From Salarchaeum japonicum (GTDB lineage Archaea; Halobacteriota; Halobacteria; Halobacteriales; Halobacteriaceae), in assembly GCF_020614395.1 (NCBI RefSeq), contig NZ_CP085324.1, positions 1,245,564-1,309,563 of the forward strand: DNA of 64,000 bases, in the 5' to 3' direction. Numbering within the stretch: the first letter of the stretch is position 1; the number at the start of each line of letters is the position of its first letter. Below the pieces are notes generated by a model. That model made no database searches and was not told the origin of the DNA. It saw nothing but the letters and a program-made list of their open reading frames with translations. The position numbers and the translations under genes were made by a program. This document shows, one piece after another, positions 4,547-20,512 of this stretch.

Positions 4547-5032
4547 TCATTCGTATTCGGGAGCCATGTAGTAATCGTCCATGTTGCTCTCGCGATCCGT
4601 CACGACGATGTGGTCGACGCGCTCGACCATCTCGTACTCCTCGATAGCCGTCACGAGCTCGTCAATTTCGCGGAGCGTCGGCGCCATCCCGACCGCGTAC
4701 ACGTCGTACGTCCCGATACCGCGGACGACATGCCAGAACCGCATTTCCGCGAGCCGGTCGAACGTAGCGTCCTTCGCACCCGGTTCGTCCACCGCCTCCA
4801 CGGCGATACGAACGATCTCCCAGCTCACGTTCTCCGGGTCGAGGAGGAAGAACACCGTCGTCATCTCCAGGAGGTTCGACACCCGATAGCGGATTCCCTC
4901 GGTCGACATCTCGTAGCCGGCCTCCTCCAACTGCGCCGCTATCTCCGAGTAGGGCGCACGCGGATCCGCCGCGAGAATCTGGAGGATGCGGCTGTCGATG
5001 TCGTCGACGTTGTCGAATCGTGAGCTATCCAT
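4547..5032 (-). CDS. Lrp/AsnC-type transcriptional regulator
   Basis: The protein has 161 residues from an ATG at 5030-5032. An N-terminal winged helix-turn-helix (DSRILQILAADPRAPYSEIA, then EGIRYRVSNL) is followed by a RAM/AsnC-like ligand-binding fold (residues about 75-145: EIVRIAVEA, FWHVVRGIGTYDVYAVG, VERVDHIVV). This is the feast/famine regulator layout. I chose this start because the open frame upstream loses haloarchaeal codon bias and is Arg/Ser-rich. It is divergent from the M19 dipeptidase gene, with 138 bases between the two starts, so it may control that gene in response to an amino acid or peptide. A 16-bp inverted repeat lies in the shared promoter. The ligand is unknown. Confidence 0.8.
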   Translation of the reverse strand: MDSSRFDNVDDIDSRILQILAADPRAPYSEIAAQLEEAGYEMSTEGIRYRVSNLLEMTTVFFLLDPENVSWEIVRIAVEAVDEPGAKDATFDRLAEMRFWHVVRGIGTYDVYAVGMAPTLREIDELVTAIEEYEMVERVDHIVVTDRESNMDDYYMAPEYE

Positions 5033-5133
5033 ACCGGCGCGTACTCGCGCGACGCTCTTGAAACGGCGGGTTGCGGAGGAAGTCGAGTGACCTCCCGTTC
5101 GAGTGAACCACCCGCTAAAGGCTGCCACAATGC

Positions 5134-5149
5134 GAGGGTTTTAACCCTC
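5134..5149. promoter_or_regulatory. Inverted repeat overlapping the M19 dipeptidase promoter
   Basis: GAGGGTT-TT-AACCCTC is a 7-bp inverted repeat with a 2-base spacer. Its TTTTAA centre lies 22-37 bases before the ATG at 5171, exactly where the TATA box of a leaderless gene belongs. It is a plausible operator for the divergent Lrp-type regulator; the link is inferred from position only. Confidence 0.45.
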
Positions 5150-5170
5150 ACTTTCCTACCGTGCAGGTGT

Positions 5171-6343
5171 ATGGGACGCGATAAGCGGTACGACCAGTAC
5201 GAGTCGTACGACTATCTCGACGACGACGCCTACGAACAGTTCGACCTTCCCGCCGTTCACGCCGGTTTCGACCCCTACGAGGTTCCCCTGAGCGACGACG
5301 AGGAAGCCCGCCTCAACGCCGTTCTCGACGACACCGTTATCTCCCTCCACGACCACCCATTCTACTTCCCCGAACACCTCTCCGAGGACATCCAGGACTA
5401 CATTCGCGCCGGCCGCGCGCGCACCGCGTTCGAAGCGCTCTCCGAGACGCCGCTCGACGCCGTGTTCGACATGCACCTCGACGGGCTCTCGCACATCCAC
5501 TCCCACCACGGTTGGAAGTGGAGCGAGATCGTCCACGACGTGACGATGCGCGCCGCCGACATCCAGCACTCTGACTACGGGATTCGCGCGAGCGGCGTCG
5601 AGGACATCGAACGCGCCCGCGAGAACGGCCAACTCGCGTTCGTTCCCGCTCTCGAATCGGCGGCGATGATAGAGAACGAACTCGACCGCCTCGACCAGCT
5701 CTACGGCATGGGCATCCGGTCTATCGGCGTGACGTACGACGCCTCGAACAGCCTCGGCGCCGGGAAGGGTGGCGTCTACGAGGTAGACGGCGGTCTTACG
5801 ACGTTCGGCGTCGACGCCATCGCGCGCATGAACGACCTCGGTCTCGCGGTGAGCACCAGTCACGCGAGCAAGCAGACCACGCTCGACGTGTGCGACGTGA
5901 CGGTCAAACCGATATTCGACACGCACGCACTCGCGCAGGGCGCGGGCATGGGCAAACGCGGCACGAGCGACGAGGAACTCGAAGCCATCGCGGCGACCGG
6001 CGGCGTCATCGGCCTGCTCTCCTCCGCCCACCTCCCGTCCATCGACGAGTACATGGAGCACTTCGAGTACCTCGTCGACCTCGTGGGCATCGACCACGTC
6101 GCGTTCGGCCCGGACGTCCTGTACGGCGACCACACAGAGTTGCTCCGCGTGCTCGCCGCCGACCAGGGCGTCGAACTCCCCGAGTCTACCCTCCAGACCG
6201 AGTACGTTCGCGGGCTGGAGAACCCGACGGAGGCCTGGCAGAACATCCCGCGCTGGCTCGTCAAGGAGGGCTACTCGGACCGCGACATCGAGAAAATCCT
6301 CGGCGAGAACATCCTCCGCGTCCTCGACGAGACGTGGGCGTGA
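5171..6343 (+). CDS. Membrane dipeptidase-like metallopeptidase (family M19)
   Basis: The protein has 390 residues. The M19 fold is recognised from a metal-binding start SLHDHPFYFP (about residue 59), a central GIRSIGVTYDASN strand, an STSHASKQT segment with the conserved His, the KPIFDTHA strand that replaces the usual SHS of bacterial enzymes, and GIDHVAFGPDVLYGD near residue 310. Family members hydrolyse dipeptides with a zinc pair; archaeal members are cytoplasmic and poorly characterised. The ATG at 5171 was chosen because a TATA element lies about 27 bases upstream and the acidic, Tyr-rich N-terminus begins there. The C-terminal helix (EGYSDRDIEKILGENILRVL) is the usual family ending. 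It faces an Lrp-type regulator, which fits control by amino acids or peptides. Confidence 0.83.
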   Translation: MGRDKRYDQYESYDYLDDDAYEQFDLPAVHAGFDPYEVPLSDDEEARLNAVLDDTVISLHDHPFYFPEHLSEDIQDYIRAGRARTAFEALSETPLDAVFDMHLDGLSHIHSHHGWKWSEIVHDVTMRAADIQHSDYGIRASGVEDIERARENGQLAFVPALESAAMIENELDRLDQLYGMGIRSIGVTYDASNSLGAGKGGVYEVDGGLTTFGVDAIARMNDLGLAVSTSHASKQTTLDVCDVTVKPIFDTHALAQGAGMGKRGTSDEELEAIAATGGVIGLLSSAHLPSIDEYMEHFEYLVDLVGIDHVAFGPDVLYGDHTELLRVLAADQGVELPESTLQTEYVRGLENPTEAWQNIPRWLVKEGYSDRDIEKILGENILRVLDETWA

Positions 6344-10470: not shown

Positions 10471-11160
10471 TCAGCGGTGTCGTTCCTCGACGCCGACGGT
10501 GAGGATTGATTTTGCGATCGCGAGGCCGCCCGTGAGGGGGTCGAGCGTCGTCTCACCGGCGCGTTCGCGGTAGTCGATGGGGAGTTCGCGAACCCGATAC
10601 CCGCGGGCGAGCGGGCGGAGGAGGAGTTCGGCGGAGAGTCCGGTGTTTTCCGTCCACGTGATGTCCTCGATGACGCGACGGCGATACGCGCGCATACCGG
10701 TGGTGGTGTCGTGGACGCGCTCCCCGAGGAGGAGCGATGCGAGGAGGGCGAACGCGATGTTCCCGTACCGGTTGGTGTCGGGCATCGCGTCCGCGCCGTG
10801 GTAGAGGCGGTCGCCGCTGACGACGTCGTAGCCGTCGTTGATCGCGTCGAGGAAGTCGGGGAGTCGTTCCATCGGGTAGGTGTCGTCGCAGTCGGTGGTG
10901 ACGACGACGGGTCGGTCGGGCGTGGTGATGGCTTCGTGCACGGCGACGCCGTACCCCTGCGGGGGTTGTTCGACGACGGTCGCGCCGTGTTCGCGTGCTA
11001 TCTCGGGCGTTCGATCCTGTGAGCTATCGACGCAGACGACGTTCGCTCGGTCGTCGGTGACCGCGGCGATGTCGGTGAGAACCGTGTCGATGGCTGCTTC
11101 TTCGTTGTACGTCCCCATGACGACGCTGACGTCGTCGAAGGTGTACGTGTCGTCGGGCAC
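10471..11160 (-). CDS. GT2 glycosyltransferase, Dol-P-sugar synthase-like
   Basis: The GT-A domain of about 229 residues belongs to family GT2: VVMGTYNEEAAIDTVL at the N-terminus, the nucleotide-binding VVCVDSS, an acidic TTDCDDTYPM motif, SGDRLYHGADAMP, and TTTGMRAYRR as in dolichyl-phosphate mannose/glucose synthases (DPM1 type). It has no C-terminal membrane helices, unlike the longer AglD-type enzymes. It probably loads a sugar from UDP or GDP onto dolichol phosphate. GTG codons at 11181, 11172 and 11160 are possible starts; I prefer 11160 because the promoter and iron-box-like palindrome at 11185-11200 leave no room for a transcript to include 11181. A substrate for the GT39-like enzyme at 13387-15399 would be a logical product. 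Confidence 0.8.
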   Translation of the reverse strand: MPDDTYTFDDVSVVMGTYNEEAAIDTVLTDIAAVTDDRANVVCVDSSQDRTPEIAREHGATVVEQPPQGYGVAVHEAITTPDRPVVVTTDCDDTYPMERLPDFLDAINDGYDVVSGDRLYHGADAMPDTNRYGNIAFALLASLLLGERVHDTTTGMRAYRRRVIEDITWTENTGLSAELLLRPLARGYRVRELPIDYRERAGETTLDPLTGGLAIAKSILTVGVEERHR

Positions 11161-11184
11161 ACGTGCCCACACACCCGCCACATT

Positions 11185-11200
11185 TTTAGGCTTACCTAAA
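11185..11200 (-). promoter_or_regulatory. Iron-box-like palindrome 1 (before GT2)
   Basis: TTTAGG-CTTA-CCTAAA: two perfect 6-bp arms with a 4-base spacer. It covers the core promoter of the GT2 gene and also contains the TAG stop of the GMC oxidoreductase (11196-11198). The same palindrome precedes three other units at 13370, 19276 and 20497. It resembles the sites of DtxR-family regulators (Idr/SirR) of halophiles, which respond to Fe(II) or Mn(II). Confidence 0.75.
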
Positions 11201-12842
11201 CACTCGCGAGGGTGTCGTGCAGGTGGTCGGCCGCCTTCAGGGAGAGCGCCGCGAGCGTCAACGTCGGATTCATCGCGCCGCCCGTCACGAACACGCTACT
11301 CCCCGCAATCCAGAGGTTGTCGAGGTCGTGCGTCCGCATCTCCGGCGTCACCACACTCTCGGCCGGGTCGTAGCCCATCCGCGTCGTCCCCATATGGTGA
11401 AAGGCCGGCCCGGTGTTCTCCGGCCCGACCTGCCACGTCACCTCCGCGCCCAGCTCGTCCAGGACGCGCTCCTGAATCTCGTTCGCTCGCTCCAGCGTCC
11501 GCCGCGTCACGTCGTCGATACCCCAGTGAACGTCCGGCACCGGGTTCCCGTGGTCGTCCGTCCGCGATTCGTCCAACCCCACGTAGTTGCTCGCGCGCGG
11601 CCGCTGTTCGACCAATCCCCCCATCGCGATGTGGTTACCGTACGACTGCCGGAGCGACCCGAGCAGGGCGTCCCCCCACTCCTCGCTCCCGAGCGCCTCC
11701 ATCACCGGCGACGGCCCCGCGTAGTTCAGGAATTCGAGTTTCAGCCGCGCGTAGTCGCTCGCGTCGCCCTCCGCGTCCGGCACGCCCTGCTCGGTTCCGC
11801 GCCGGGGGTCGTCGTAGAACTGGTGGCACTCGCTCGTCAGGAACCCGACGTGGTTCTGCCGCGTCTCCGCGTCCAGCACGCCCCCGGTTCCCGCGAACAC
11901 GTGATCCATGAAGTACCGGCCGACCGCGCCGCTCGTGTTCGCGAGGCCGTCCGGGTAGGCGTCGGACGCGGAGAGCAGGAGGAGGCGCGGCGTCTCCACC
12001 CCGCCGCACGCGACCACGAACTGACTGGCCTGCTGGCGGTGCGTCTCGCCGTCCGGCGTCGCGTACACCGCCGCCGTCACGCGGTCGCCCGACGCGTCGT
12101 GTTCGAGTCGCTGCACCGCCGCCCGGTCGATGACGCGTGCGCCGTCGGCTTCCGCCGACGAGACGTGTCGGGTCGCGTCGTACTTCGCGCCCGACGGACA
12201 CACCGGCTTGCAGGTGCCGTACCCGATGCACGGCGACTCGTCCGCGTACGCCTCCGAGTTCCGCGCGTTCGGCACGGAGTGAGTGGCGATGCCGAGTCGC
12301 TCGCAGGCGTCCGCGAACAGCGAGTCGCTGTACGACGGCTCGAACGCCGGCATCGGATACGGTTCGTCGCGTGGCGGCGCGAACGGATTGTCGTCCGCGC
12401 CCGCGACGCCGAGCGCGCGCTCCGCCGCGGCGTAGTACGGCCGGAGGTCGTCGTAGTCGAGCGGCCAGTCCGCGGCGACGCCGTGCCGGGACGCCTGCTC
12501 GAAGTCGAGTTCGTGTAACCGCATCACCATCCCCTGCCAGTGGAGCGTCGACCCCCCGACGCCCTTCACGCGCGCCCGGTTCAGCGGGTATCCGCGGTCG
12601 CCCGACGACGTGTACGCGTCGCGCTCCCCGCCCATGTCCCAGACGGAGAGCGGGCCGTGGCCCGGCCGAATGTGGCGTTCCATGCGCTCGCGTCGGCTGT
12701 CGTCGTCGAACCGCTCGCCGGCTTCGAGCACGACGACGTCGTGGCCGCGCGCCGCGAGCCTGTCCGCGACGAGCGCCCCCGCCGGCCCCGCGCCGACGAT
12801 GCACACGTCCGCCGACCCGGACGGCGTTCGGTTCGCGCTCAT
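11196..12842 (-). CDS. GMC family oxidoreductase (gluconate/sugar dehydrogenase large subunit type)
   Basis: The FAD enzyme has 548 residues. The N-terminal dinucleotide fold is DVCIVGAGPAGALVADRL (about 11-28), followed by GGSTLHWQGM. A four-Cys type segment CIGYGTCKPVCPSGAKYDA (about 210) is typical of the gluconate 2-dehydrogenase branch of the family. The C-terminus has HHMGTTRMG and LWIAGSSVFVTGGAMNPTLT, with the active-site His and Asn. It should oxidise a sugar or polyol hydroxyl and pass electrons on. It has no signal peptide, and its ATG overlaps the stop of the small subunit gene, which carries a twin-arginine signal, so the complex is probably exported folded by hitch-hiking. It is transcribed from iron-box-like palindrome 2. 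Confidence 0.85.
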   Translation of the reverse strand: MSANRTPSGSADVCIVGAGPAGALVADRLAARGHDVVVLEAGERFDDDSRRERMERHIRPGHGPLSVWDMGGERDAYTSSGDRGYPLNRARVKGVGGSTLHWQGMVMRLHELDFEQASRHGVAADWPLDYDDLRPYYAAAERALGVAGADDNPFAPPRDEPYPMPAFEPSYSDSLFADACERLGIATHSVPNARNSEAYADESPCIGYGTCKPVCPSGAKYDATRHVSSAEADGARVIDRAAVQRLEHDASGDRVTAAVYATPDGETHRQQASQFVVACGGVETPRLLLLSASDAYPDGLANTSGAVGRYFMDHVFAGTGGVLDAETRQNHVGFLTSECHQFYDDPRRGTEQGVPDAEGDASDYARLKLEFLNYAGPSPVMEALGSEEWGDALLGSLRQSYGNHIAMGGLVEQRPRASNYVGLDESRTDDHGNPVPDVHWGIDDVTRRTLERANEIQERVLDELGAEVTWQVGPENTGPAFHHMGTTRMGYDPAESVVTPEMRTHDLDNLWIAGSSVFVTGGAMNPTLTLAALSLKAADHLHDTLASV

Positions 12843-13360
12843 GGCGGTCGCTGGTAGCTCCCCGCGCCACCCGGGTGACCGATGGGGTTCTCGATGCCGA
12901 CGAGTTCCCCGCCGGTGGGCGACGCGTAGAGCGCGTACAGGAGTTCGTTCACGACGTAGTACCGAACGCGCTCGACGTCGCTCCCGTCGGGGTCGGGGTC
13001 GGCGGTGTCCGCGTTCATCGCGTGGAGCGCGTCCGACCGCGTCAACCGGTGGAGGTCGGCGAAGGACTCGTCGTGCCAGGAGCGAGCGTAGTCGTCGAGG
13101 TAGTCGGTCGCGGCCGCGATGCCCGCCGCGTGGTCGGGGTGGTCGCGGACGCGGCCGTCGAGGAAGGTTTCGACGAAGGACGCGACGTTCTCGACCGGCG
13201 TCGGGTAGAGGGTGTGGGCGGCGGCGACCATCGTCGTTCGGCTGTCGGCGTCGAGCGGTCGGTCGTCCGCCCCGTCGTCGCCGGTGAGGACGACCGCCCC
13301 ACCGACGGTCACGCCGGTGGCGGCGAGCGCGGCGAGCGCGTCGCGGCGACTCAGCTTCAT
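12839..13360 (-). CDS. Gluconate 2-dehydrogenase subunit 3-like protein with Tat signal
   Basis: The protein has 173 residues from the ATG at 13358-13360. The N-terminus, KLSRRDALAALAATGVTVGG, is a twin-arginine signal followed by a hydrophobic stretch without a lipobox Cys. The mature part has the subunit-3 pattern: AAHTLYPT, FVETFLDGR, a helical middle and VRYYVVNELLYALYASPTGG with GIENPIGHPGG at the end. Subunit 3 is the small partner of membrane gluconate or sugar dehydrogenases and carries the flavoprotein through Tat. The gene is coupled to the GMC gene by ATGA. Iron-box-like palindrome 2 lies 10-25 bases upstream, with a TATA-like CTAAGTTTA about 27 bases before the ATG. Confidence 0.82.
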   Translation of the reverse strand: MKLSRRDALAALAATGVTVGGAVVLTGDDGADDRPLDADSRTTMVAAAHTLYPTPVENVASFVETFLDGRVRDHPDHAAGIAAATDYLDDYARSWHDESFADLHRLTRSDALHAMNADTADPDPDGSDVERVRYYVVNELLYALYASPTGGELVGIENPIGHPGGAGSYQRPP

Positions 13361-13369
13361 CCACCCATG

Positions 13370-13385
13370 TTTAGGTGTGCCTAAA
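13370..13385 (-). promoter_or_regulatory. Iron-box-like palindrome 2 (before subunit 3/GMC operon)
   Basis: TTTAGG-TGTG-CCTAAA. It lies one base away from the TAA of the GT39-like gene (13387-13389) and overlaps the TATA region of the leaderless gene starting at 13360. A bound regulator here would block transcription-factor access, as expected for repression under iron-replete conditions (inferred). Confidence 0.75.
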
Positions 13386-13386
13386 C

Positions 13387-15399
13387 TTAGTGGTTGTGTT
13401 CGGCGACCGTCATCGACACGTTCACGAACACGCTCGGCCGCGACGGCGACGGCACGTACGCCGCGGCACCGCCGCACGCCCGGACGTTCGCGCACCGCTC
13501 GACCCGCGGTGACAGCGCGCGCACGTCGCCCCCGGTGGCATCGACCGGCAGGGACAGCCGGTACGTGAACCCGTCCCCGCCGCCGTACTGGACGAACGCC
13601 GACACCCGCACCGTCCCCCGTCCGGCGACGGTCAGCGAGTCGTTCCCCGTGGCGGACACGTCGCCCGCGACGGACACGCGACCGTCACGCACGGACACGT
13701 TCAGGCCGACCGCGCCGTCCGTCGGCTCGGCCGTGTAGTACGCGCTCTCAGCGTCCGTCGCGACGCGAATCGTGGTCGCGGTCGCGGCCGACGGCACGCC
13801 CAACCGGGCCTCAAGCGTCACGGCCGCCCCGGACACGTCCTCGACGCGCTGGAGGCGTGCGGCGGACGGCGACCCCGCCGCGGGGTTCCAGACGCCCCGG
13901 TAGACGTACCGGTAGAGCGACCGGTTCGGGAACGCGTCCGCGACCGCGAACGGCCGGTCGTCGATGGCGTACACCGCCCGTCCGTCGAACCCGGGGTCGT
14001 TCCGCAACGGCTGGAACGGGTGGTTCAGCCAGTCGCCGTACGGATCCGGAAGCAACACTACCGATTCGGCGGGCGCGCCGTCCTCGAACGGCGCGTACGC
14101 CGTTTCGTACGTCTCGGTCACGTCGAGGTTCGTCTGCACGGGGTCGGCCGCGTTCCCCGCGGTTACGACCGCGCCGCCCGTCAGGCCGACCACGAGCACG
14201 GCGGCGACCGCGACGCGCGCGACCCGCGGGTCGAACCGCTCGCGCGCCGCCGTCCGCAGGCGCGTACCGCCGCGGACGGCCGCGAACGCCGCGAACACCG
14301 CCGTCGGAACGAGGAGGTCGAAGTGGTAGTAGGGGCCGAGAACGGACACCAGTCCGTCGCCCGCCCTCGACACGTCACCGAGGATGTTGAACGTCCCCCA
14401 GAAGTAGACGTTGCCGGCGGCGACCGTGACGAACACGCCGGCCACCGCCGCGGCGCGCGCCGACCACTCGCGGCGGCCCGCCCACACGACGCCCGCGGCG
14501 GCGAGGAGGCTTCCGAACGCGCCGCCCGCCACCCACTTCGTGAAGAACAGGTCGAGGACGATGCGGTTCACGCGCACGGCGAGTTCCGGCGTGTACACGA
14601 CCTCGTGGCCGAGCAGGCGGCGTTGCCCGAACCCGAGTCCGTCCAGCGGCGCGAACGCCTGATAGGGGAAGACGAACGCGTCCCCGGTCACCAGCGCGTT
14701 GTAGCCGAGGGTGACGCCGACGCCGGCCAGGCCGAGCGCCGCGGTCACCGCCTGCCGGGGGAGCGCCGCCCGCCAGTCCGCGTAGAGCGTCCAGAGCGCG
14801 TGCGCCACGAACGGGGTCGCGAACAGGACGGCGGTGTACGGCCGGGAGAAGAACGCTACCCCGACCGCGCCGCCGGCGACGGCCGCCCACCGGCGGCTCC
14901 CGGTTCGGTCGGCCCGCAGGTAGGCGTACGCGAACGCGAGGTTCAGCAGGGTCGTCGGCGCGTACGGCAGGAACACGCCCGACTCGACGACGAACAGGGG
15001 GGACGCGAGCACGAACGCGCCGGCGAGCAGGCCGACGCGGGAATCGAACACCTCGCGCCCGACGAGCGCGGTGAGCGCGACGACCCCGGCGGCGATACCG
15101 GGGAGCGCGAGCCGGTACGCGCCGAACAGCTCGCCGAGCGCGAAGAAGAACGCCGGAACCGGCGCGTACTTCGCGTACAGCCGGTCGCCCGTGTCCACGA
15201 AGAACCACGGCCGGAACGCGTCCTCCATCGGCGGCCGGAGGAACACCTGGCCGTCGAGTAACATCGCGGCCTGCTGGAGGTAGACGCCCTCGTCGTGGTT
15301 CAGGGAGTGATAGGGGAACACCGTCGTCGATACCAGCCACGCGACCACGGCCGCGACACCGACGAGCGCGAGCACGCCCCAGTGCCAGCGCCGAGTCAT
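13387..15399 (-). CDS. GT39/ArnT-like polytopic glycosyltransferase
   Basis: The protein has 670 residues. About 11 membrane helices fill residues 1-430. The first loop has the acidic motif YHSLNHDEGVYLQQA (about 30-44), matching the catalytic Asp/Glu loop of ArnT/PMT enzymes, and AFRPWFFVDTGDRLYAKYAP follows. The C-terminal 230 residues form a soluble, Asn-x-Ser/Thr-rich domain, probably outside the cell. Such enzymes move a sugar from a polyprenyl phosphate onto a lipid, glycan or protein at the outer membrane face. Its ATG overlaps the stop of the iron-transport ATPase, so it is the fourth gene of that operon, which is unusual. Its donor could be made by the GT2 at 10471-11160. Acceptor unknown. 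Confidence 0.78.
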   Translation of the reverse strand: MTRRWHWGVLALVGVAAVVAWLVSTTVFPYHSLNHDEGVYLQQAAMLLDGQVFLRPPMEDAFRPWFFVDTGDRLYAKYAPVPAFFFALGELFGAYRLALPGIAAGVVALTALVGREVFDSRVGLLAGAFVLASPLFVVESGVFLPYAPTTLLNLAFAYAYLRADRTGSRRWAAVAGGAVGVAFFSRPYTAVLFATPFVAHALWTLYADWRAALPRQAVTAALGLAGVGVTLGYNALVTGDAFVFPYQAFAPLDGLGFGQRRLLGHEVVYTPELAVRVNRIVLDLFFTKWVAGGAFGSLLAAAGVVWAGRREWSARAAAVAGVFVTVAAGNVYFWGTFNILGDVSRAGDGLVSVLGPYYHFDLLVPTAVFAAFAAVRGGTRLRTAARERFDPRVARVAVAAVLVVGLTGGAVVTAGNAADPVQTNLDVTETYETAYAPFEDGAPAESVVLLPDPYGDWLNHPFQPLRNDPGFDGRAVYAIDDRPFAVADAFPNRSLYRYVYRGVWNPAAGSPSAARLQRVEDVSGAAVTLEARLGVPSAATATTIRVATDAESAYYTAEPTDGAVGLNVSVRDGRVSVAGDVSATGNDSLTVAGRGTVRVSAFVQYGGGDGFTYRLSLPVDATGGDVRALSPRVERCANVRACGGAAAYVPSPSRPSVFVNVSMTVAEHNH

Positions 15400-16499
15400 T
15401 CCTCGGTCGGGAACCAGGCGAGCCTGTGGTCGATGTCGAGGTCGACGCGGACTCGCCGGTCGAGGGAGAGTTGGTCGGCGTGGTTGTGCTCGCAGTACAC
15501 GAGTCCGCCGGTGTCGAGTTCCACGCGGTAGACGAACGCCGGTCCCGTGTACTGGCGGTGGACGACGCGGCCGTTCCCGTCGTCGGTGGGAACCGCTCGC
15601 AGGTCGTCGGGGCGGACGAGCACGTCGATGTCCGCGCCCTCGTACTCCGCGTCGAGGCCCGCGATGGCGTCCGCCGGCACGTCTCCCACGGGCGTCTCCA
15701 CCCGTCCGTCGGCGAATCGGCCGGAGACGAACCCGGCCTCGCCGATGAACTCCGCGACGAACCGGGACGTCGGCTGCTCGAAGACCGTCTCGGGCCGCCC
15801 GACCTGTTCGAGGTGGCCGTCGTTCATCACCGCGACGCGGTCGCTGATGGACAACGCCTCCTCCTGGTCGTGCGTCACCGAAATCGCCGTGACGCCGGTT
15901 TCCTTGAGGATTCGACGCACCTCCTCGCGCATCTCGCGTCGTAGCGACACGTCGAGGTTGGAGAACGGTTCGTCGAGCAGGATGACGTCGGGTTCCGGCG
16001 CGAGCGACCGCGCGAGCGCGACGCGCTGTTTCTGGCCGCCCGAGAGCGTGTCCGGCGCGGCGTCCGCGTAGTCCGCCAGTCCGACGAGGTCGAGGAGGTC
16101 GCTCACGCGGCGCTCGACCGCCTCGTCGGGCCGGTTCGCGATACCGTACGCGACGTTCTCCCCGACCGACAGGTGGGGGAACAGCGCGAAGTCCTGGAAC
16201 AGCAGTCCGATGTCCCGGTTCTCGGGGCGGACGAACGTCCCGTCGTCCGCGACGACGTCCCCGCGGACGCGAACGCGGCCGTCGTCGGGGCGTTCGAGAC
16301 CCGCTATCAGGCGGAGCGTGGTCGACTTCCCACAGCCGGACGGGCCGAGCAGTGTCAGGAGTTCGCCGTCGCGAACGTCGAAAGAGAGCGAATCGACGGC
16401 GGTTTCGGGGCCGAACGACCGCGTCACCCCGTCGAGTTCGAGGATTGGTGGTCGGTCGTGCTCGTCCGCGTCCGGTCGTGTCTGGCGTGTCTCACTCAT
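15396..16499 (-). CDS. Ferric-iron-type ABC transporter ATP-binding protein
   Basis: The protein has 367 residues from the ATG at 16497-16499. Motifs are Walker A GPSGCGKST (about 52), Q-loop LLFQDFALFPH, signature LSGGQKQRVALARSL, Walker B VILLDEPFSNLD, and the switch His in SVTHDQEEAL. A TOBE-type domain occupies about 245-367. The FbpC/PotA-like layout with QDFALFPHLS and the FSNLD loop fits iron(III) importers. It overlaps the permease stop by eight bases and the next gene by ATGA, so translation is coupled along the operon. It powers import of iron presented by the lipoprotein encoded first in the operon. Spermidine or thiamine transport is possible from the ATPase alone; the partners favour iron. 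Confidence 0.86.
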   Translation of the reverse strand: MSETRQTRPDADEHDRPPILELDGVTRSFGPETAVDSLSFDVRDGELLTLLGPSGCGKSTTLRLIAGLERPDDGRVRVRGDVVADDGTFVRPENRDIGLLFQDFALFPHLSVGENVAYGIANRPDEAVERRVSDLLDLVGLADYADAAPDTLSGGQKQRVALARSLAPEPDVILLDEPFSNLDVSLRREMREEVRRILKETGVTAISVTHDQEEALSISDRVAVMNDGHLEQVGRPETVFEQPTSRFVAEFIGEAGFVSGRFADGRVETPVGDVPADAIAGLDAEYEGADIDVLVRPDDLRAVPTDDGNGRVVHRQYTGPAFVYRVELDTGGLVYCEHNHADQLSLDRRVRVDLDIDHRLAWFPTEE

Positions 16500-18120
16500 T
16501 CGTGTCACCGTCGCCCGTGTCTTCCTGCGCGAGGATGACGGCCATCGAGAGGCCGGAGACGACCACGAGGACGAGCGCCGGGAGCGCCGCCCGCCCGTAC
16601 AGCCCCGCTTCCTCTACTCGCCAGATGTACGTGACGAGCGTATCAAAGCCTAACGGACGAAGGATGAGCGTGGCGGGGAGTTCCTTCATCGTCGTGAGGA
16701 ACACGAGCGCCGCACCGGTGACGATGCCGGGCGCGATGAGCGGGAGGGTGACGGAGCGGAACGCGCCGAATCGAGACCGGCCGAGCGTGCGCGCGGCCTC
16801 GACGAGCGTCCTGTCCACCTGGAGCGCCGAGGTTCGCATCGACCCGATGGCCTGCGGGACGAACCTGACGACGTACGCGAACACGAGCAGGGGCAGGGTC
16901 TTGTAGAACGCGGGCGCGGCGTCGAGGCTGAAGCTCACGAGCGCGATGGCGAGCACGATACCGGGCGCGGCGTAGCCTGCGTACGGCGCGCGGTCGGCGA
17001 GCGCGGCCAGCCGCGAGTCGGACGCGGCCGACCGGAGCGCGATCGGGAGCGCGACGAGCACGGACGCGACGGCCGCGAGGAACGCGACGTAGAGCGAGTT
17101 CCAGCCGTACGTCCACGAGAACGCCATCGACCCGCCCGCGTAGCCGGGGCCGCCGCTCGTGAGCCAGAGCGCGAACACGACGACCGGGAGGAGAATCGCG
17201 GTCGCGCCGACGAGGAGCGGGAGGAGGAGGAGCGGGTAGCGGAGGCGGCCGAGGCGGATGGAGAGCGCGCCGCGATTGCCGCTGCTCGCGTACGCGCCGG
17301 AGTCGTCCGCGCCGATGCGGGATTCGACGGCGAGGATGACCGCGGTGACCGCGAGTAACTGGAGGGAGAGCAGGGCCGCGTAGTCCCGCATGAACCCGGT
17401 GTAGCGCGCGTAGATGAACTGCGTGAACACTTCGACGTGCATGATGTTCGGCGTGCCGAAGTCGGAGAGCGTGTAGAGCGCGACGAGGAGCGCGCCGGCG
17501 GCGACGCCCGGCAGTATCTGGGGGAGGGTGACGCGGCGGAACGCCTCCCAGCGGCCCGAGTTCAGCGTGCGCGCGGCCTCGACGAGGGACGCGTCGAGCG
17601 AGAGGAGGGAGGCGCGCGTCGTCAGGAACACGTACGGGTACGTGTAGACGGTGAGGACGAGCGCGGCCCCGGTGAAGCCGTCTATCGTGGGTATCGTCTC
17701 GACGCCGAGCGGCCGGAGCGCGTTCACGAGCACGCCGTCCTGGCCCGTGGCCGAGACGACGGCGAACGCGCCGAGGTAGCTCGGGACGGCGAGCGGGAGC
17801 GCCGCGAGCACGGTCCAGAACCGCTTGAAGGGGATGTCGGCTTGCACGGTCAACACCGCGAGCGGAACGCCGACGAGGACGCTGCCGGCGGTGACGACCG
17901 CGACGAGCGCGACGCTGCGCGCGAGCACGGCGAGCGTTGTCGCGGACGTGGCGAGGTCGATGGCGCGACCGCCGAGGCCGAGCACGTCGACGAACAGCCA
18001 TCCGAGCGGAACGACGAGCGCGGCGGCGAGCGCGGCGGCGAGCAGTGTCAGTCCGGTGCCGACCGCCGTGTCGTCGGCGACCCGGTCGGGGAGGCTGGTC
18101 AGTCGGTCGCCGACGCTCAT
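16492..18120 (-). CDS. Ferric-iron-type ABC transporter permease (fused, FbpB-like)
   Basis: The permease has 542 residues and 12 membrane helices in two fused halves. Each half has an EAA loop: EAARTLNSGRWEAFRRVTLP near residue 180 and EAARTLGRSRFGAFRSVTLP near 445. The C-terminal MKELPATLILRPLGFDTLVT segment is characteristic of FbpB/SfuB iron(III) permeases. It transports iron across the cytoplasmic membrane, driven by the ATPase encoded next. The start overlaps the stop of the binding-protein gene (ATGA). Confidence 0.87.
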   Translation of the reverse strand: MSVGDRLTSLPDRVADDTAVGTGLTLLAAALAAALVVPLGWLFVDVLGLGGRAIDLATSATTLAVLARSVALVAVVTAGSVLVGVPLAVLTVQADIPFKRFWTVLAALPLAVPSYLGAFAVVSATGQDGVLVNALRPLGVETIPTIDGFTGAALVLTVYTYPYVFLTTRASLLSLDASLVEAARTLNSGRWEAFRRVTLPQILPGVAAGALLVALYTLSDFGTPNIMHVEVFTQFIYARYTGFMRDYAALLSLQLLAVTAVILAVESRIGADDSGAYASSGNRGALSIRLGRLRYPLLLLPLLVGATAILLPVVVFALWLTSGGPGYAGGSMAFSWTYGWNSLYVAFLAAVASVLVALPIALRSAASDSRLAALADRAPYAGYAAPGIVLAIALVSFSLDAAPAFYKTLPLLVFAYVVRFVPQAIGSMRTSALQVDRTLVEAARTLGRSRFGAFRSVTLPLIAPGIVTGAALVFLTTMKELPATLILRPLGFDTLVTYIWRVEEAGLYGRAALPALVLVVVSGLSMAVILAQEDTGDGDTNE

Positions 18121-19271
18121 CCAGGAACGCCGGCCTCTCGCATGATTTCGAGCGTTTCTTCGAGGTTCGAGAGCGCGGAGAGGTCGATGTCCGGGGGGCT
18201 CAGTTCGTCGATGGTCGGCAGGTCGCCAACGGGTTCGACGCCCGGAATCATCGGGTACGCGAAACTCACGGTCGCGAAGAACTCCTGGGCTTCCGCGGAG
18301 AGCAGGTGGCGGACGAACAGGTCGACCAGGTCGGACTTCTGGGTGCCCTGTATCTTGAGCGCGCCCGCGACGTTCACGAGCGCGCCGGCGTCCCCGCTCG
18401 TGAACGCGAGGTCGAGGGGGGCGTCGGGGCGCTGGTTCTTCACGCGGAGCGCGTAGTAGTGGTTCGCGAACCCGACCGGGATGGTTCCGTCGGCGACGCG
18501 TTGGGAGACGACGAACTCGTCGGGGAAGCGCTGCGCGCCGTTCTCGCGCATCGCGACGAGCCAGTCGCGGGTCGGGTCGGGGCCGCGGAGCAACCGCATC
18601 GCGGTGACGAACGACTTGAACGCGCCGTACGTTGGGGCCCAGCCGACCGTGTTCGGGAACGAGGCGGTGGTCGGGAACTCCCGAACGGTCGCCGGGACGT
18701 CGCTCTCGTCGAGCTGGTCGGTGTTGTACGGGACGCTCCGCGCGCGGCCGGCGACGCCGACCCAGGCGTTGTCGTCACCCTGGAAGCCGCTCGGGACGGG
18801 TTCGACCACGGTATCGCCGAGCGGGTCGTAGGCGTCGTTGTCGGCGACGTACCCGAGCGAACTGGCGTCTATCGACCAGAACACGTCCGCCTGTGGCGCG
18901 CCCGATTCGACTTCTTCGACGATGTTCTGCGCGAGCGAGGAGGACGCGGCGCTGCTCTCGTAGACGGTGAAGTCGGGGTATATCTCCTGGAGCATCTCGA
19001 CGAAGCGGTAGTAGATTCCGCCTTCGCCGCCGCCGATGTAGAGGTTGAGTTCGCCGGAGAGGTCGGGGAGGTCTTCGATGGACGTGCCGCCGGGCGCGGG
19101 GCGGCCCTCGATGATGGCTCCGGAGCCGCGGAACGTGGCGAGTTCGGGGATTGTTACGCTTTCGTCGTCCGAGTTGCCGCCGATGAGTCCCTGGCAGCCG
19201 GCGAGGCCGGCGAGCGACCCGGCGGCCGCTGTCTGGAGAACGCGTCGGCGGGTTCGACGTGAGTCGCGCAT
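18117..19271 (-). CDS. Iron(III) ABC transporter substrate-binding lipoprotein
   Basis: The protein has 384 residues. The N-terminus is a twin-arginine lipoprotein signal: RRTRRRVLQTAAAGSLAGLA with lipobox LAGC (Cys about 27). The mature part is a class of FbpA-like binding proteins: ELNLYIGGGEGGIYYRFVEM, QADVFWSIDASSLGYV, SVPYNTDQLDESDVP and a closing domain with VGFANHYYALRV, whose paired tyrosines are the usual Fe(III) ligands in FbpA proteins. It captures iron outside the cell. It is first gene of a four-gene operon and has iron-box-like palindrome 3 five bases upstream of its ATG, overlapping the promoter. Iron specificity is inferred from family and box; other metals or phosphonate-like ligands are less likely. 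Confidence 0.86.
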   Translation of the reverse strand: MRDSRRTRRRVLQTAAAGSLAGLAGCQGLIGGNSDDESVTIPELATFRGSGAIIEGRPAPGGTSIEDLPDLSGELNLYIGGGEGGIYYRFVEMLQEIYPDFTVYESSAASSSLAQNIVEEVESGAPQADVFWSIDASSLGYVADNDAYDPLGDTVVEPVPSGFQGDDNAWVGVAGRARSVPYNTDQLDESDVPATVREFPTTASFPNTVGWAPTYGAFKSFVTAMRLLRGPDPTRDWLVAMRENGAQRFPDEFVVSQRVADGTIPVGFANHYYALRVKNQRPDAPLDLAFTSGDAGALVNVAGALKIQGTQKSDLVDLFVRHLLSAEAQEFFATVSFAYPMIPGVEPVGDLPTIDELSPPDIDLSALSNLEETLEIMREAGVPG

Positions 19272-19275
19272 ATGA

Positions 19276-19291
19276 TTTAGGCGAACCTAAA
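19276..19291 (-). promoter_or_regulatory. Iron-box-like palindrome 3 (before iron ABC operon)
   Basis: TTTAGG-CGAA-CCTAAA, followed at 19294-19300 by an extra half-site ACCTAAG. The TATA-like stretch AGGTTATTT lies at about 19289-19297, so a bound protein would cover the promoter of the leaderless gene starting at 19271. Because this copy sits before the iron transporter, it gives the best clue to what the shared palindrome senses. Confidence 0.8.
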
Positions 19292-19314
19292 TAACCTAAG
19301 TGTTTGTGGTTTCG

Positions 19315-20481
19315 TCAGTCCAGCGCGGCCGCCGTCGCGGGGTCGGTCTCCCGGGACTCGATGGCGTCCAGACAGTCGAGCCACGCCCGCATCGCCTCTC
19401 CGCACTCGTTCAGGAATCCGCCGTTGTTCCAGTCGCTCCAGTCACCCGTCGCGAGTTCGTCCGCGATAGCGCGGAACACGCCAGCGTACGAGTCTGCGTC
19501 CCCGCCGACGCGGTCTGCGACCTTCCAGACGTGTTCGTTCAGTTCGAGACCGGCGACCTCGTTCTGGAGGTCGTCGAAGGTCGACCGCGGGGCCTTGTTG
19601 TGCTCGCAGAGCGGGTCGCCGTTGTATATCTGGGTGTCGAGCACGTCGCACGCGCGCTTCAGGAACACGCCCGACCAGATGTCGTCGAACCGCCCGACCT
19701 CCCAGTCGTTGTCGTCCATCGGCAACTGGTAGAACGCGGGCACGACCTCCCGGCGGAACGCGAGGTTCATCGAACACACCGTGAGGTACTGGCCGGACGC
19801 GGCGACGAAATCCGTCTCGAAGTCCTCGCGGGCGGTTCGCGTCTGCGCCTGCCCCCGGAGGTCGCCGTCCATCAGGATGCGTACGGCGTCGAGGTCGGGG
19901 ACGTTCGTCCAGAGGCCCTGCGAGGCGACCACGGAGTCCACGTGCTCGGTCTCCGCGGTCACGGATTCGTCCATCGCCGCGTACGGGTATCCGCGCGGGT
20001 AGAGGTCGTTGTCGCCCTCGTGGAGGACGTTCACCCACTGCTCGTCGGAACGCATCGACCGCACCTCGCCCTCGTAGTGGAGGTTGGTCATGTGCGTCCC
20101 GAAGAAGTCCACGTCGTCGTGCGGCCGCGTGTCGTCGTCGATGAACACGCCGTACTCGAATCCCGGGTCGTCCCAGAGGTAGAGCAGGCCGAACGAGGTC
20201 TGCGCGTGGCTGGCCGCGGGAATCAGGTCGGCGTACTCGGAGAGGCCGCGGTCGTCGAACCACGCGTCGCGGCCGGTGCCGTCGAACACCGCGCCCGCGA
20301 CGTCGAGGTCGTCGAGCATGCGTTCCATCGCGGCGGTGTCGCAGAAGTCCTCGGTGACGAGGACGAAGAACAGCCGGTCGGTGTCGAAGCCGTGGCGGCG
20401 GGCGTTCTCGACGTAACTCCGCACGCAGTCGTACTCGCGTATCGTCGGGACGACGACGCAGATGTCCGGGCGGTCGCTCAT
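19315..20481 (-). CDS. Reversibly glycosylated polypeptide (UDP-arabinopyranose mutase)-like protein
   Basis: The soluble protein has 388 residues. The N-terminal strand is DICVVVPTIREYDCVRSYVE. An acidic FIDDDTRPHDD motif (about 118) corresponds to the DxD of the RGP family. PRGYPY, SGQYLTVCSMNLAFRREVVP, FYQLPMDDNDW and RFDDIWSGVFLKR match the conserved core of plant reversibly glycosylated polypeptides, which autoglycosylate and interconvert UDP-arabinose ring forms. The archaeal reaction is unknown. Its ATG is preceded by a strong Shine-Dalgarno GGAGGTG, unlike the leaderless neighbours, and by iron-box-like palindrome 4. It heads the iron-linked glycan locus and could supply an activated sugar. 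Confidence 0.78.
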   Translation of the reverse strand: MSDRPDICVVVPTIREYDCVRSYVENARRHGFDTDRLFFVLVTEDFCDTAAMERMLDDLDVAGAVFDGTGRDAWFDDRGLSEYADLIPAASHAQTSFGLLYLWDDPGFEYGVFIDDDTRPHDDVDFFGTHMTNLHYEGEVRSMRSDEQWVNVLHEGDNDLYPRGYPYAAMDESVTAETEHVDSVVASQGLWTNVPDLDAVRILMDGDLRGQAQTRTAREDFETDFVAASGQYLTVCSMNLAFRREVVPAFYQLPMDDNDWEVGRFDDIWSGVFLKRACDVLDTQIYNGDPLCEHNKAPRSTFDDLQNEVAGLELNEHVWKVADRVGGDADSYAGVFRAIADELATGDWSDWNNGGFLNECGEAMRAWLDCLDAIESRETDPATAAALD

Positions 20482-20496
20482 TCACCTCCACCGAGG

Positions 20497-20512
20497 TTTA
20501 GGCAATCCTAAA
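20497..20512 (-). promoter_or_regulatory. Iron-box-like palindrome 4 (before RGP-like gene)
   Basis: TTTAGG-CAAT-CCTAAA, 15 bases before the ATG at 20481. Between them is the Shine-Dalgarno sequence, so this transcript has a short leader. This is the fourth copy of the palindrome within 9.4 kb, all on minus-strand promoters. Confidence 0.75.

Follow-up and report, generated by a model that had tools for sequence, protein, structure and literature searches.

Several described systems come close to parts of the locus presented here. The 14-bp sequence TTAGGNNNNCCTAA is the redefined IdeR/DtxR consensus and can be bound by one dimer (PMC8464063), and a 'ferR regulon signal' lies upstream of the fhu genes of Haloferax volcanii (PMC11349517). 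MtdL is a nucleoside diphosphate (NDP)-pyranose mutase of family GT75 (PMC9937993). With AglD, AglR and AglS, Haloferax makes a dolichyl-phosphate (Dol-P) sugar inside the cell, flips it and transfers it outside (PMC5867893), and AepG of Haloarcula hispanica is a Dol-P glucuronosyltransferase that serves extracellular polysaccharide and not N-glycosylation (PMC9943897). In the flavin adenine dinucleotide (FAD)-dependent glucose dehydrogenase of Burkholderia, C212, C218 and C222 are the ligands of a 3Fe-4S cluster (PMC6719666). Counterparts of these systems, together with a ferric importer, stand under four copies of one palindrome, TTTAGGNNNNCCTAAA (hereafter the iron box), in a 64,000-nucleotide stretch of the Salarchaeum japonicum genome (the window; contig NZ_CP085324.1, positions 1,245,564 to 1,309,563). 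Each part comes from a known family, and the novelty is their union as a co-conserved module. We found no description of this union in the literature searched; Leyn and Rodionov 2015 may list single genes, and passages of PMC11218638 and PMC10869688 say nothing about the module.

The iron box and the conservation of the module

Read along the minus strand from 20512 to 10471, the locus consists of a box and an RGP-like gene; a box followed by genes for a substrate-binding protein (SBP), a permease, an ATPase and a GT-C glycosyltransferase with a DUF7846 domain; a box followed by a small subunit gene and a GMC dehydrogenase gene; and a box followed by a GT2 glycosyltransferase gene. An earlier note, made from the letters of this DNA, had placed TTTAGG-N4-CCTAAA at 11185, 13370, 19276 and 20497 on minus-strand promoters, and all four are exact matches, each on the minus strand: box 1 (20497-20512) upstream of the RGP-like gene, box 2 (19276-19291) upstream of the importer operon, box 3 (13370-13385) upstream of the dehydrogenase genes, and box 4 (11185-11200) upstream of the GT2 gene, where it overlaps the GMC stop codon. 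Even at a tolerance of two mismatches the rest of the window holds no other copy, and the exact pattern occurred in 0 of 100 dinucleotide shuffles. Across the genome (2.34 Mb, two contigs) the box is found at 25 places, 18 exact and 7 with one mismatch, against 2 places for a reversed control pattern.

All four window boxes contain the core TTAGGNNNNCCTAA. Fourteen of the exact copies lie outside the window, and the genes next to them were identified in nine regions around box sites. Eight of the 14 stand upstream of siderophore-type ATP-binding cassette (ABC) genes or a DtxR gene; among these, six directly precede genes for Peripla_BP_2 proteins (one slightly below the Pfam cut-off) and one precedes a FecCD permease gene with its ATPase gene. 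The remaining six lie before genes of other or unclear function, including a pyridine-nucleotide-oxidoreductase-like gene, a DUF7551/DUF7552 gene and two small open reading frames. Such targets mean that the palindrome belongs to a regulon in which iron-uptake genes abound, and its copies are not randomly placed in the genome. Both its sequence and the rest of its targets identify the palindrome as a DtxR/IdeR-type site, in agreement with the earlier note. The DtxR/IdeR regulons described to date, including those of the haloarchaeal Idr1/Idr2 and the 'ferR regulon signal', share the box core as well as siderophore-type ABC and DtxR targets, whereas glycan and sugar-dehydrogenase genes are undescribed as conserved targets in the literature searched, although Leyn and Rodionov 2015 may list some.

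We surveyed 145 Halobacteria genomes and a set of loci around the RGP-like gene, consisting of 60 chosen to cover genera plus five more, two of which proved to be the same place (L069 and L111), leaving 64. Gene starts were taken from tblastn, and a box before a gene was counted at one mismatch or fewer unless stated otherwise. The RGP-like gene is present in 115 of the 145 genomes, in single copy except for two matches in G021. Gene order is kept in other Halobacteria: in 64/64 loci the SBP gene comes directly after the RGP-like gene, and farther along, in the same orientation, stands the GT-C gene; many loci have the permease and ATPase genes in between, and other loci have these two at a different place. 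A box precedes the RGP-like gene in 64/64 loci, the SBP gene in 56/64, the GT2 gene in 49/50 linked loci and the GMC gene in 26/32 linked loci (29/32 at two mismatches). As internal controls, the GT-C gene has a box in 0/64 loci and the ATPase gene in 1/41; for the permease gene the count is 14/60. Six of the eight SBP genes that lack a box are in loci with the GMC gene upstream of the RGP-like gene, and one of the remaining two, in locus L124, has a two-mismatch box. The box also accompanies genes that have moved. In 40 regions selected by hand to sample many genera, it lies upstream of 43 of 43 relocated copies (24 GMC, 19 GT2) that are 40 kb or more away from the RGP-like gene or on a different contig, with zero or one mismatch before all 19 GT2 genes and with zero to two mismatches before all 24 GMC genes, 17 of which have zero or one.

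The genes also occur together. With thresholds of E <= 1e-20 for RGP, 1e-60 for GT2, 1e-150 for GMC and 1e-70 for GT-C, and in plain genome counts that ignore relatedness, GT2 is found in exactly the same 115 genomes as RGP, and GMC in those 115 and in G104, as a weaker match of 57% identity. GT-C passes its threshold in 108 genomes, all inside the 115; when the seven misses were rechecked, six held a GT-C gene beside the RGP-like gene (one cut by a contig end) and G142 held one in L127. Six genera (g8, g12, g18, g21, g30 and g54) contain both module-positive and module-negative genomes, and the latter lack all of RGP, GT2 and GMC. Within genus g18, G053 and G128 carry a GMC gene that is not linked to RGP, and still all three genes are absent from G031. 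Pairwise-identity correlations among the module proteins ranged from r = 0.24 to 0.75 and were not used as evidence. The comparisons of loci, relocated copies and gene distribution show co-conservation and a shared box, and they suggest that the four promoters constitute one iron-starvation module conserved in most of the Halobacteria sampled, in line with the earlier proposal that the four units belong together. As a possible reason for absence of the module, anaerobic life was considered and discarded: in a search that covered the module-negative genomes, only 4 of 30 lacked COX1. These four (G001, G007, G093 and G129) may be anaerobes; the other 26 have COX1.

Protein families and the proposed pathway

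The domain assignments that had been made from the sequence (ferric ABC importer, Dol-P hexose transferase, GMC dehydrogenase with its Tat subunit, RGP) are borne out; the last gene of the importer operon, which encodes the GT-C/DUF7846 protein, had gone unmentioned. The RGP-like protein (388 aa; 19315..20481, minus strand) matches PF03214 with 54.1 bits against a cut-off of 23.8, and its closest solved protein is MtdL (E 1.5e-22). All 64 sequences compared, from the window and 63 loci, have the equivalents of MtdL D109-D111, R159, D195, S228, R257, D260 and H287, as D115-D117 (DDD), R163 (the autoglycosylated Arg), D196, S237, R264, D267 and H294. In MtdL these residues are required for metal, substrate or catalysis, and this protein is predicted by family and conserved catalytic residues to convert an NDP-pyranose into an NDP-furanose. 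It differs from the GT75 mutases (MtdL, plant UAM/RGP) in context, an archaeal iron regulon versus an antibiotic or cell-wall pathway, and from MtdL at D87 (His92); R289 (Lys296) and H292 (Arg299) of MtdL are also divergent, and a further difference, at Q229, is considered below.

The importer operon opens with an FbpA-type ferric substrate-binding lipoprotein gene (384 aa, SBP_bac_6; 18117..19271, minus strand). The SBP has Fe(III)-binding solved relatives, and its tandem tyrosines align with those of solved ferric binding proteins; NHYY is present in 61/61 sequences and a lipobox-like motif in 52/61. The permease is of the FbpB type (16492..18120, minus strand; PF00528 in two stretches), and the ATPase of the FbpC type with a TOBE domain (15396..16499, minus strand; PF00005 and PF08402). 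The tandem-Tyr SBP, permease and TOBE ATPase are shared with FbpABC/FutABC ferric importers; unlike those, the window importer has a GT-C glycosyltransferase gene downstream in the same direction and an RGP-like gene directly upstream. The GT-C gene (670 aa; 13387..15399, minus strand; PMT_2 with a C-terminal DUF7846) shares four bases with the ATPase gene and lacks a box, and so is probably cotranscribed with the importer. A sequence search of the GT-C protein against solved structures returned nothing meaningful. An AlphaFold2 model built from six sequences, of moderate confidence (pLDDT 68.9), matches oligosaccharyltransferases (OST, AglB; Z up to 24.7), ArnT (21.1), Pmt and the mycobacterial arabinosyltransferases (Emb) over about residues 1-465. 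In this model DUF7846 is a separate beta-rich C-terminal part that is hardly covered by the fold matches. The acidic motif of the first outer loop, D36-E37, is found in 64/64 sequences.

The GT2 protein (236 aa; 10471..11181, minus strand) is assigned to a dolichyl-phosphate hexose transferase family by an NCBIfam equivalog (NF041391; 407.3 bits versus a cut-off of 375), and its solved relatives are archaeal Dol-P-mannose synthase and ArnC. It contains no hydrophobic segment, with no 19-aa window above the hydropathy cut-off. Like AepG it is a GT2 enzyme predicted from its family to charge dolichyl phosphate, but AepG has two C-terminal membrane helices and sits in an aglB cluster, and the window protein has no such helices. 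For these middle steps the closest precedent is the AglD-AglR-AglS scheme, and charging inside, flipping and transfer outside are likewise proposed for the module; the latter differs in its GT2 family, in a GT-C protein with DUF7846, in mutase-type and dehydrogenase partners and in the iron box. A gene for a PF03706 (LPG_synthase_TM) membrane protein, f8, stands directly upstream of the RGP-like gene, at a distance of about 1.2 kb, in 18 loci (L096, L098, L099 and 15 others), in 16 of which it has a box with zero or one mismatch, often of the variant TTTAGGTGGGCTTAAA. PF03706 is the Pfam domain of Agl-type flippases, and f8 is a candidate flippase. It was rejected as a core part of the module, as it adjoins RGP in only these 18 loci. 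An NAD-dependent epimerase-family gene, f9, lies near RGP in 14 loci and is without a box in all 14.

The dehydrogenase unit encodes a small subunit exported by the twin-arginine (Tat) pathway, of the hitchhiker type (Gluconate_2-dh3, 173 aa; 12839..13360, minus strand; PF13618 over cut-off), and a GMC sugar dehydrogenase with 3Fe-4S cysteines (548 aa; 11196..12842, minus strand). The twin-arginine (RR) motif is present in 24/24 small subunits. The GMC protein matches FAD-glucose dehydrogenase over its full length (E 1.2e-79) and fructose dehydrogenase likewise (E ~1e-75). Its C205, C211 and C215 are the equivalents of the Burkholderia cluster ligands and are kept in 33/33 sequences, and its likely catalytic pair, a His and an Asn, corresponds to H482 and N525. 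The Burkholderia cepacia FAD-glucose dehydrogenase and fructose dehydrogenase share with the module the full-length GMC protein, the 3Fe-4S cysteines and the Tat hitchhiker gamma subunit. The window enzyme differs from the former in having no partner for the inter-subunit disulfide at Cys213 (Val in 29, Ile in 2 and Ser in 1 of 33 sequences), in its iron-box control and in the lack of a tri-heme cytochrome beta subunit among the families conserved in the loci, for which no dedicated search was made.

From these families we propose the following sequence of events. DtxR proteins generally act as repressors. At 56 SBP promoters the median distance from box end to the first ATG or GTG is 4 nt, and the stretch 6-10 nt upstream of the box, 83% A+T in composition, has a TATA-like consensus; at 64 RGP promoters the median gap is 12 nt and no clear TATA-like element is seen. 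In the window the spacing from box to start codon is 15 nt for RGP, 4 nt for the SBP, 9 nt for the small subunit and 3 nt for GT2, whose GTG start is less sure. A protein bound at the box would cover the start region, and because of this promoter geometry and the general DtxR mode of action the box is probably a site of repression: an iron-loaded DtxR-family protein would occupy the box, an element that spans the interval from a TATA-like stretch to a probably leaderless start, and would block transcription until iron shortage lifts the block. The RGP-like protein would then turn an NDP-pyranose into an NDP-furanose, and the GT2 enzyme would load a sugar, possibly that furanose, onto dolichyl phosphate in the cytoplasm. 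Flipping of the charged lipid might fall to the PF03706 protein, whose gene stands under a similar box in part of the genomes, or to a different protein, and the GT-C/DUF7846 protein would transfer the sugar to an acceptor outside the membrane. There the Tat-exported FAD/[3Fe-4S] dehydrogenase could oxidize the exposed sugar. We infer these steps, from sugar conversion to oxidation, from family membership and conserved catalytic residues. Finally, the oxidized glycan could be an extracytoplasmic Fe(III) ligand from which the FbpA-type lipoprotein, and through it the ABC importer, receives iron.

Weighing a role in iron acquisition

We put the probability that the module, from iron-controlled transcription to extracellular sugar oxidation, serves iron acquisition at roughly 0.6. 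The last step, in which the oxidized glycan binds Fe(III), is the least certain, and taken by itself we propose it only tentatively. Sugar acids have general chelating power, and it is because of this and because the glycan genes are tied to an Fe(III) importer that we consider iron binding by the product at all. The complete proposal, that a dolichol-routed, probably furanose-containing glycan is made upon iron starvation and is oxidized outside the membrane to a surface-bound Fe(III) ligand (a 'glycan siderophore') which loads an FbpA-type lipoprotein in most Halobacteria, is possible, with odds clearly below even.

Several observations weigh against the proposal. Ferric importers elsewhere work without glycans of this kind, and an iron-sulfur enzyme made under iron shortage would be costly in a way that the proposal leaves unexplained. 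MtdL Gln229 is replaced by methionine (Met238) in 64/64 RGP-like sequences, a position compared with MtdL only and not known to be family-defining; the Gln229 mutant of MtdL is nearly inactive (PMC9937993). The predicted binder of the box is one candidate among at least five genes with DtxR domains over cut-off in the Salarchaeum japonicum genome. Haloferax volcanii has an RGP-family gene, and the core products are not among the 19 proteins that the main-text list of PMC11349517 gives as changed at least 10-fold under iron starvation in this species. The same list includes the UPF0104 protein HVO_1859 (+11.6) and the GalE-family protein HVO_0655 (+12.7), which resemble f8 and f9 by name only. 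The module was also considered as a substitute for NIS siderophores, an idea that we rejected: IucA/IucC occurs in 30 of 115 module genomes versus 8 of 30 others, with no match in Salarchaeum japonicum, and since its presence is thus unrelated to that of the module, the latter does not behave as a plain substitute for this siderophore class.

Alternatively, low iron might remodel the envelope, with a changed surface, lipoprotein or lipid glycan and no chelation, just as AglD-AglR-AglS attaches a terminal Dol-P mannose or ArnC-ArnT modifies a lipid; the dehydrogenase would then tailor the sugar or feed electrons to respiration, and the importer would merely share a regulon and a neighbourhood with the glycan genes. 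The middle steps of the module do resemble known Dol-P routes, and metal binding by the product is conjecture. However, the SBP gene comes right after RGP, with GT-C in the same direction, in every one of the 64 loci, even where the permease and ATPase genes have moved, and so close an association with an Fe(III)-binding protein is not what a purely structural glycan would lead one to expect. We regard such remodelling as a serious but rather doubtful alternative. Cellobiose dehydrogenase can pass electrons to Fe(III), and it is conceivable that the module's dehydrogenase acts in this way through its 3Fe-4S cluster, with the glycan as fuel or anchor and with either the module's own glycan or outside sugars as electron donor. 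The enzyme belongs to a direct-electron-transfer type whose 3Fe-4S cluster lies at the surface, and the locus-conserved families include no partner cytochrome, although no dedicated cytochrome search was made; on the other hand, the linked importer is of the ferric and not the ferrous type, and the conserved set includes no ferrous transporter, which makes extracellular ferric reduction unlikely. That unrelated genes beside an iron operon gained boxes through their position is very improbable: we found no point in its support, and it is contradicted by the boxes on all the relocated copies examined, by the nearly box-free GT-C and ATPase controls and by the near-identical phyletic sets.

If the module does serve iron uptake, it would be among the most widespread iron systems of Halobacteria; in comparison, the IucA/IucC siderophore class is present in 38 of 145 genomes versus 115 of 145 for the module, other siderophore classes not having been searched. 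It would also bring together the making of a glycan, redox chemistry outside the cell and the uptake of a metal, a combination not found described in the literature searched, and would assign a function to an archaeal GT75 protein as well as to a Dol-P hexose transferase family that has been named but not placed. Should the oxidized glycan be a 'glycan siderophore', it would represent an iron-acquisition strategy not known from any domain and common to most Halobacteria. With the RGP family present in Haloferax volcanii, a genetic model organism, the module is open to testing at once.

The wider regulon and its candidate regulators

Exact boxes are present in 9 of the 10 module-negative genomes examined (2 to 17 in each; none in G093), and the module therefore seems to belong to a larger regulon as one of its branches. 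In G029, which is module-negative, the reversed control pattern occurs 4 times versus 3 for the box. One short DtxR-type gene of Salarchaeum japonicum (L016:7526-7897, minus strand) has its own exact box about 55 nt upstream (L016:7952-7967), and its matches in G041, G097 and G039 likewise have a box no more than about 300 nt away; this gene, whose matches of 40% identity or more are confined to part of the class, may encode an autoregulated second regulator. As the regulator in all genomes it was rejected: among the matches listed, about 50 reach 40% identity, and the others, at about 31-38%, resemble another paralogue.

Further boxes of this genome stand beside genes of diverse function. A one-mismatch box (L019:13559-13574) lies upstream of a ferritin-like gene (PF00210; L019:12950-13531, minus strand), and the regulator may therefore also touch iron storage. 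One-mismatch boxes were also seen beside a ZIP transporter gene and, on the smaller contig (C2), upstream of a multicopper oxidase gene (L024:4964-6118; box L024:4935-4950). An exact box (L022:4913-4928) ends 4 nt before a gene with DUF7551 and DUF7552 domains (4933-5727). Two more exact boxes precede small open reading frames (ORFs) of about 54 and 63 codons (L018:4640-4655; L019:11597-11612, the latter with an ORF at 11621-11812). The products of these two ORFs share a (G/R)W(I/L)ATD-like stretch and are possibly small iron-regulated proteins.

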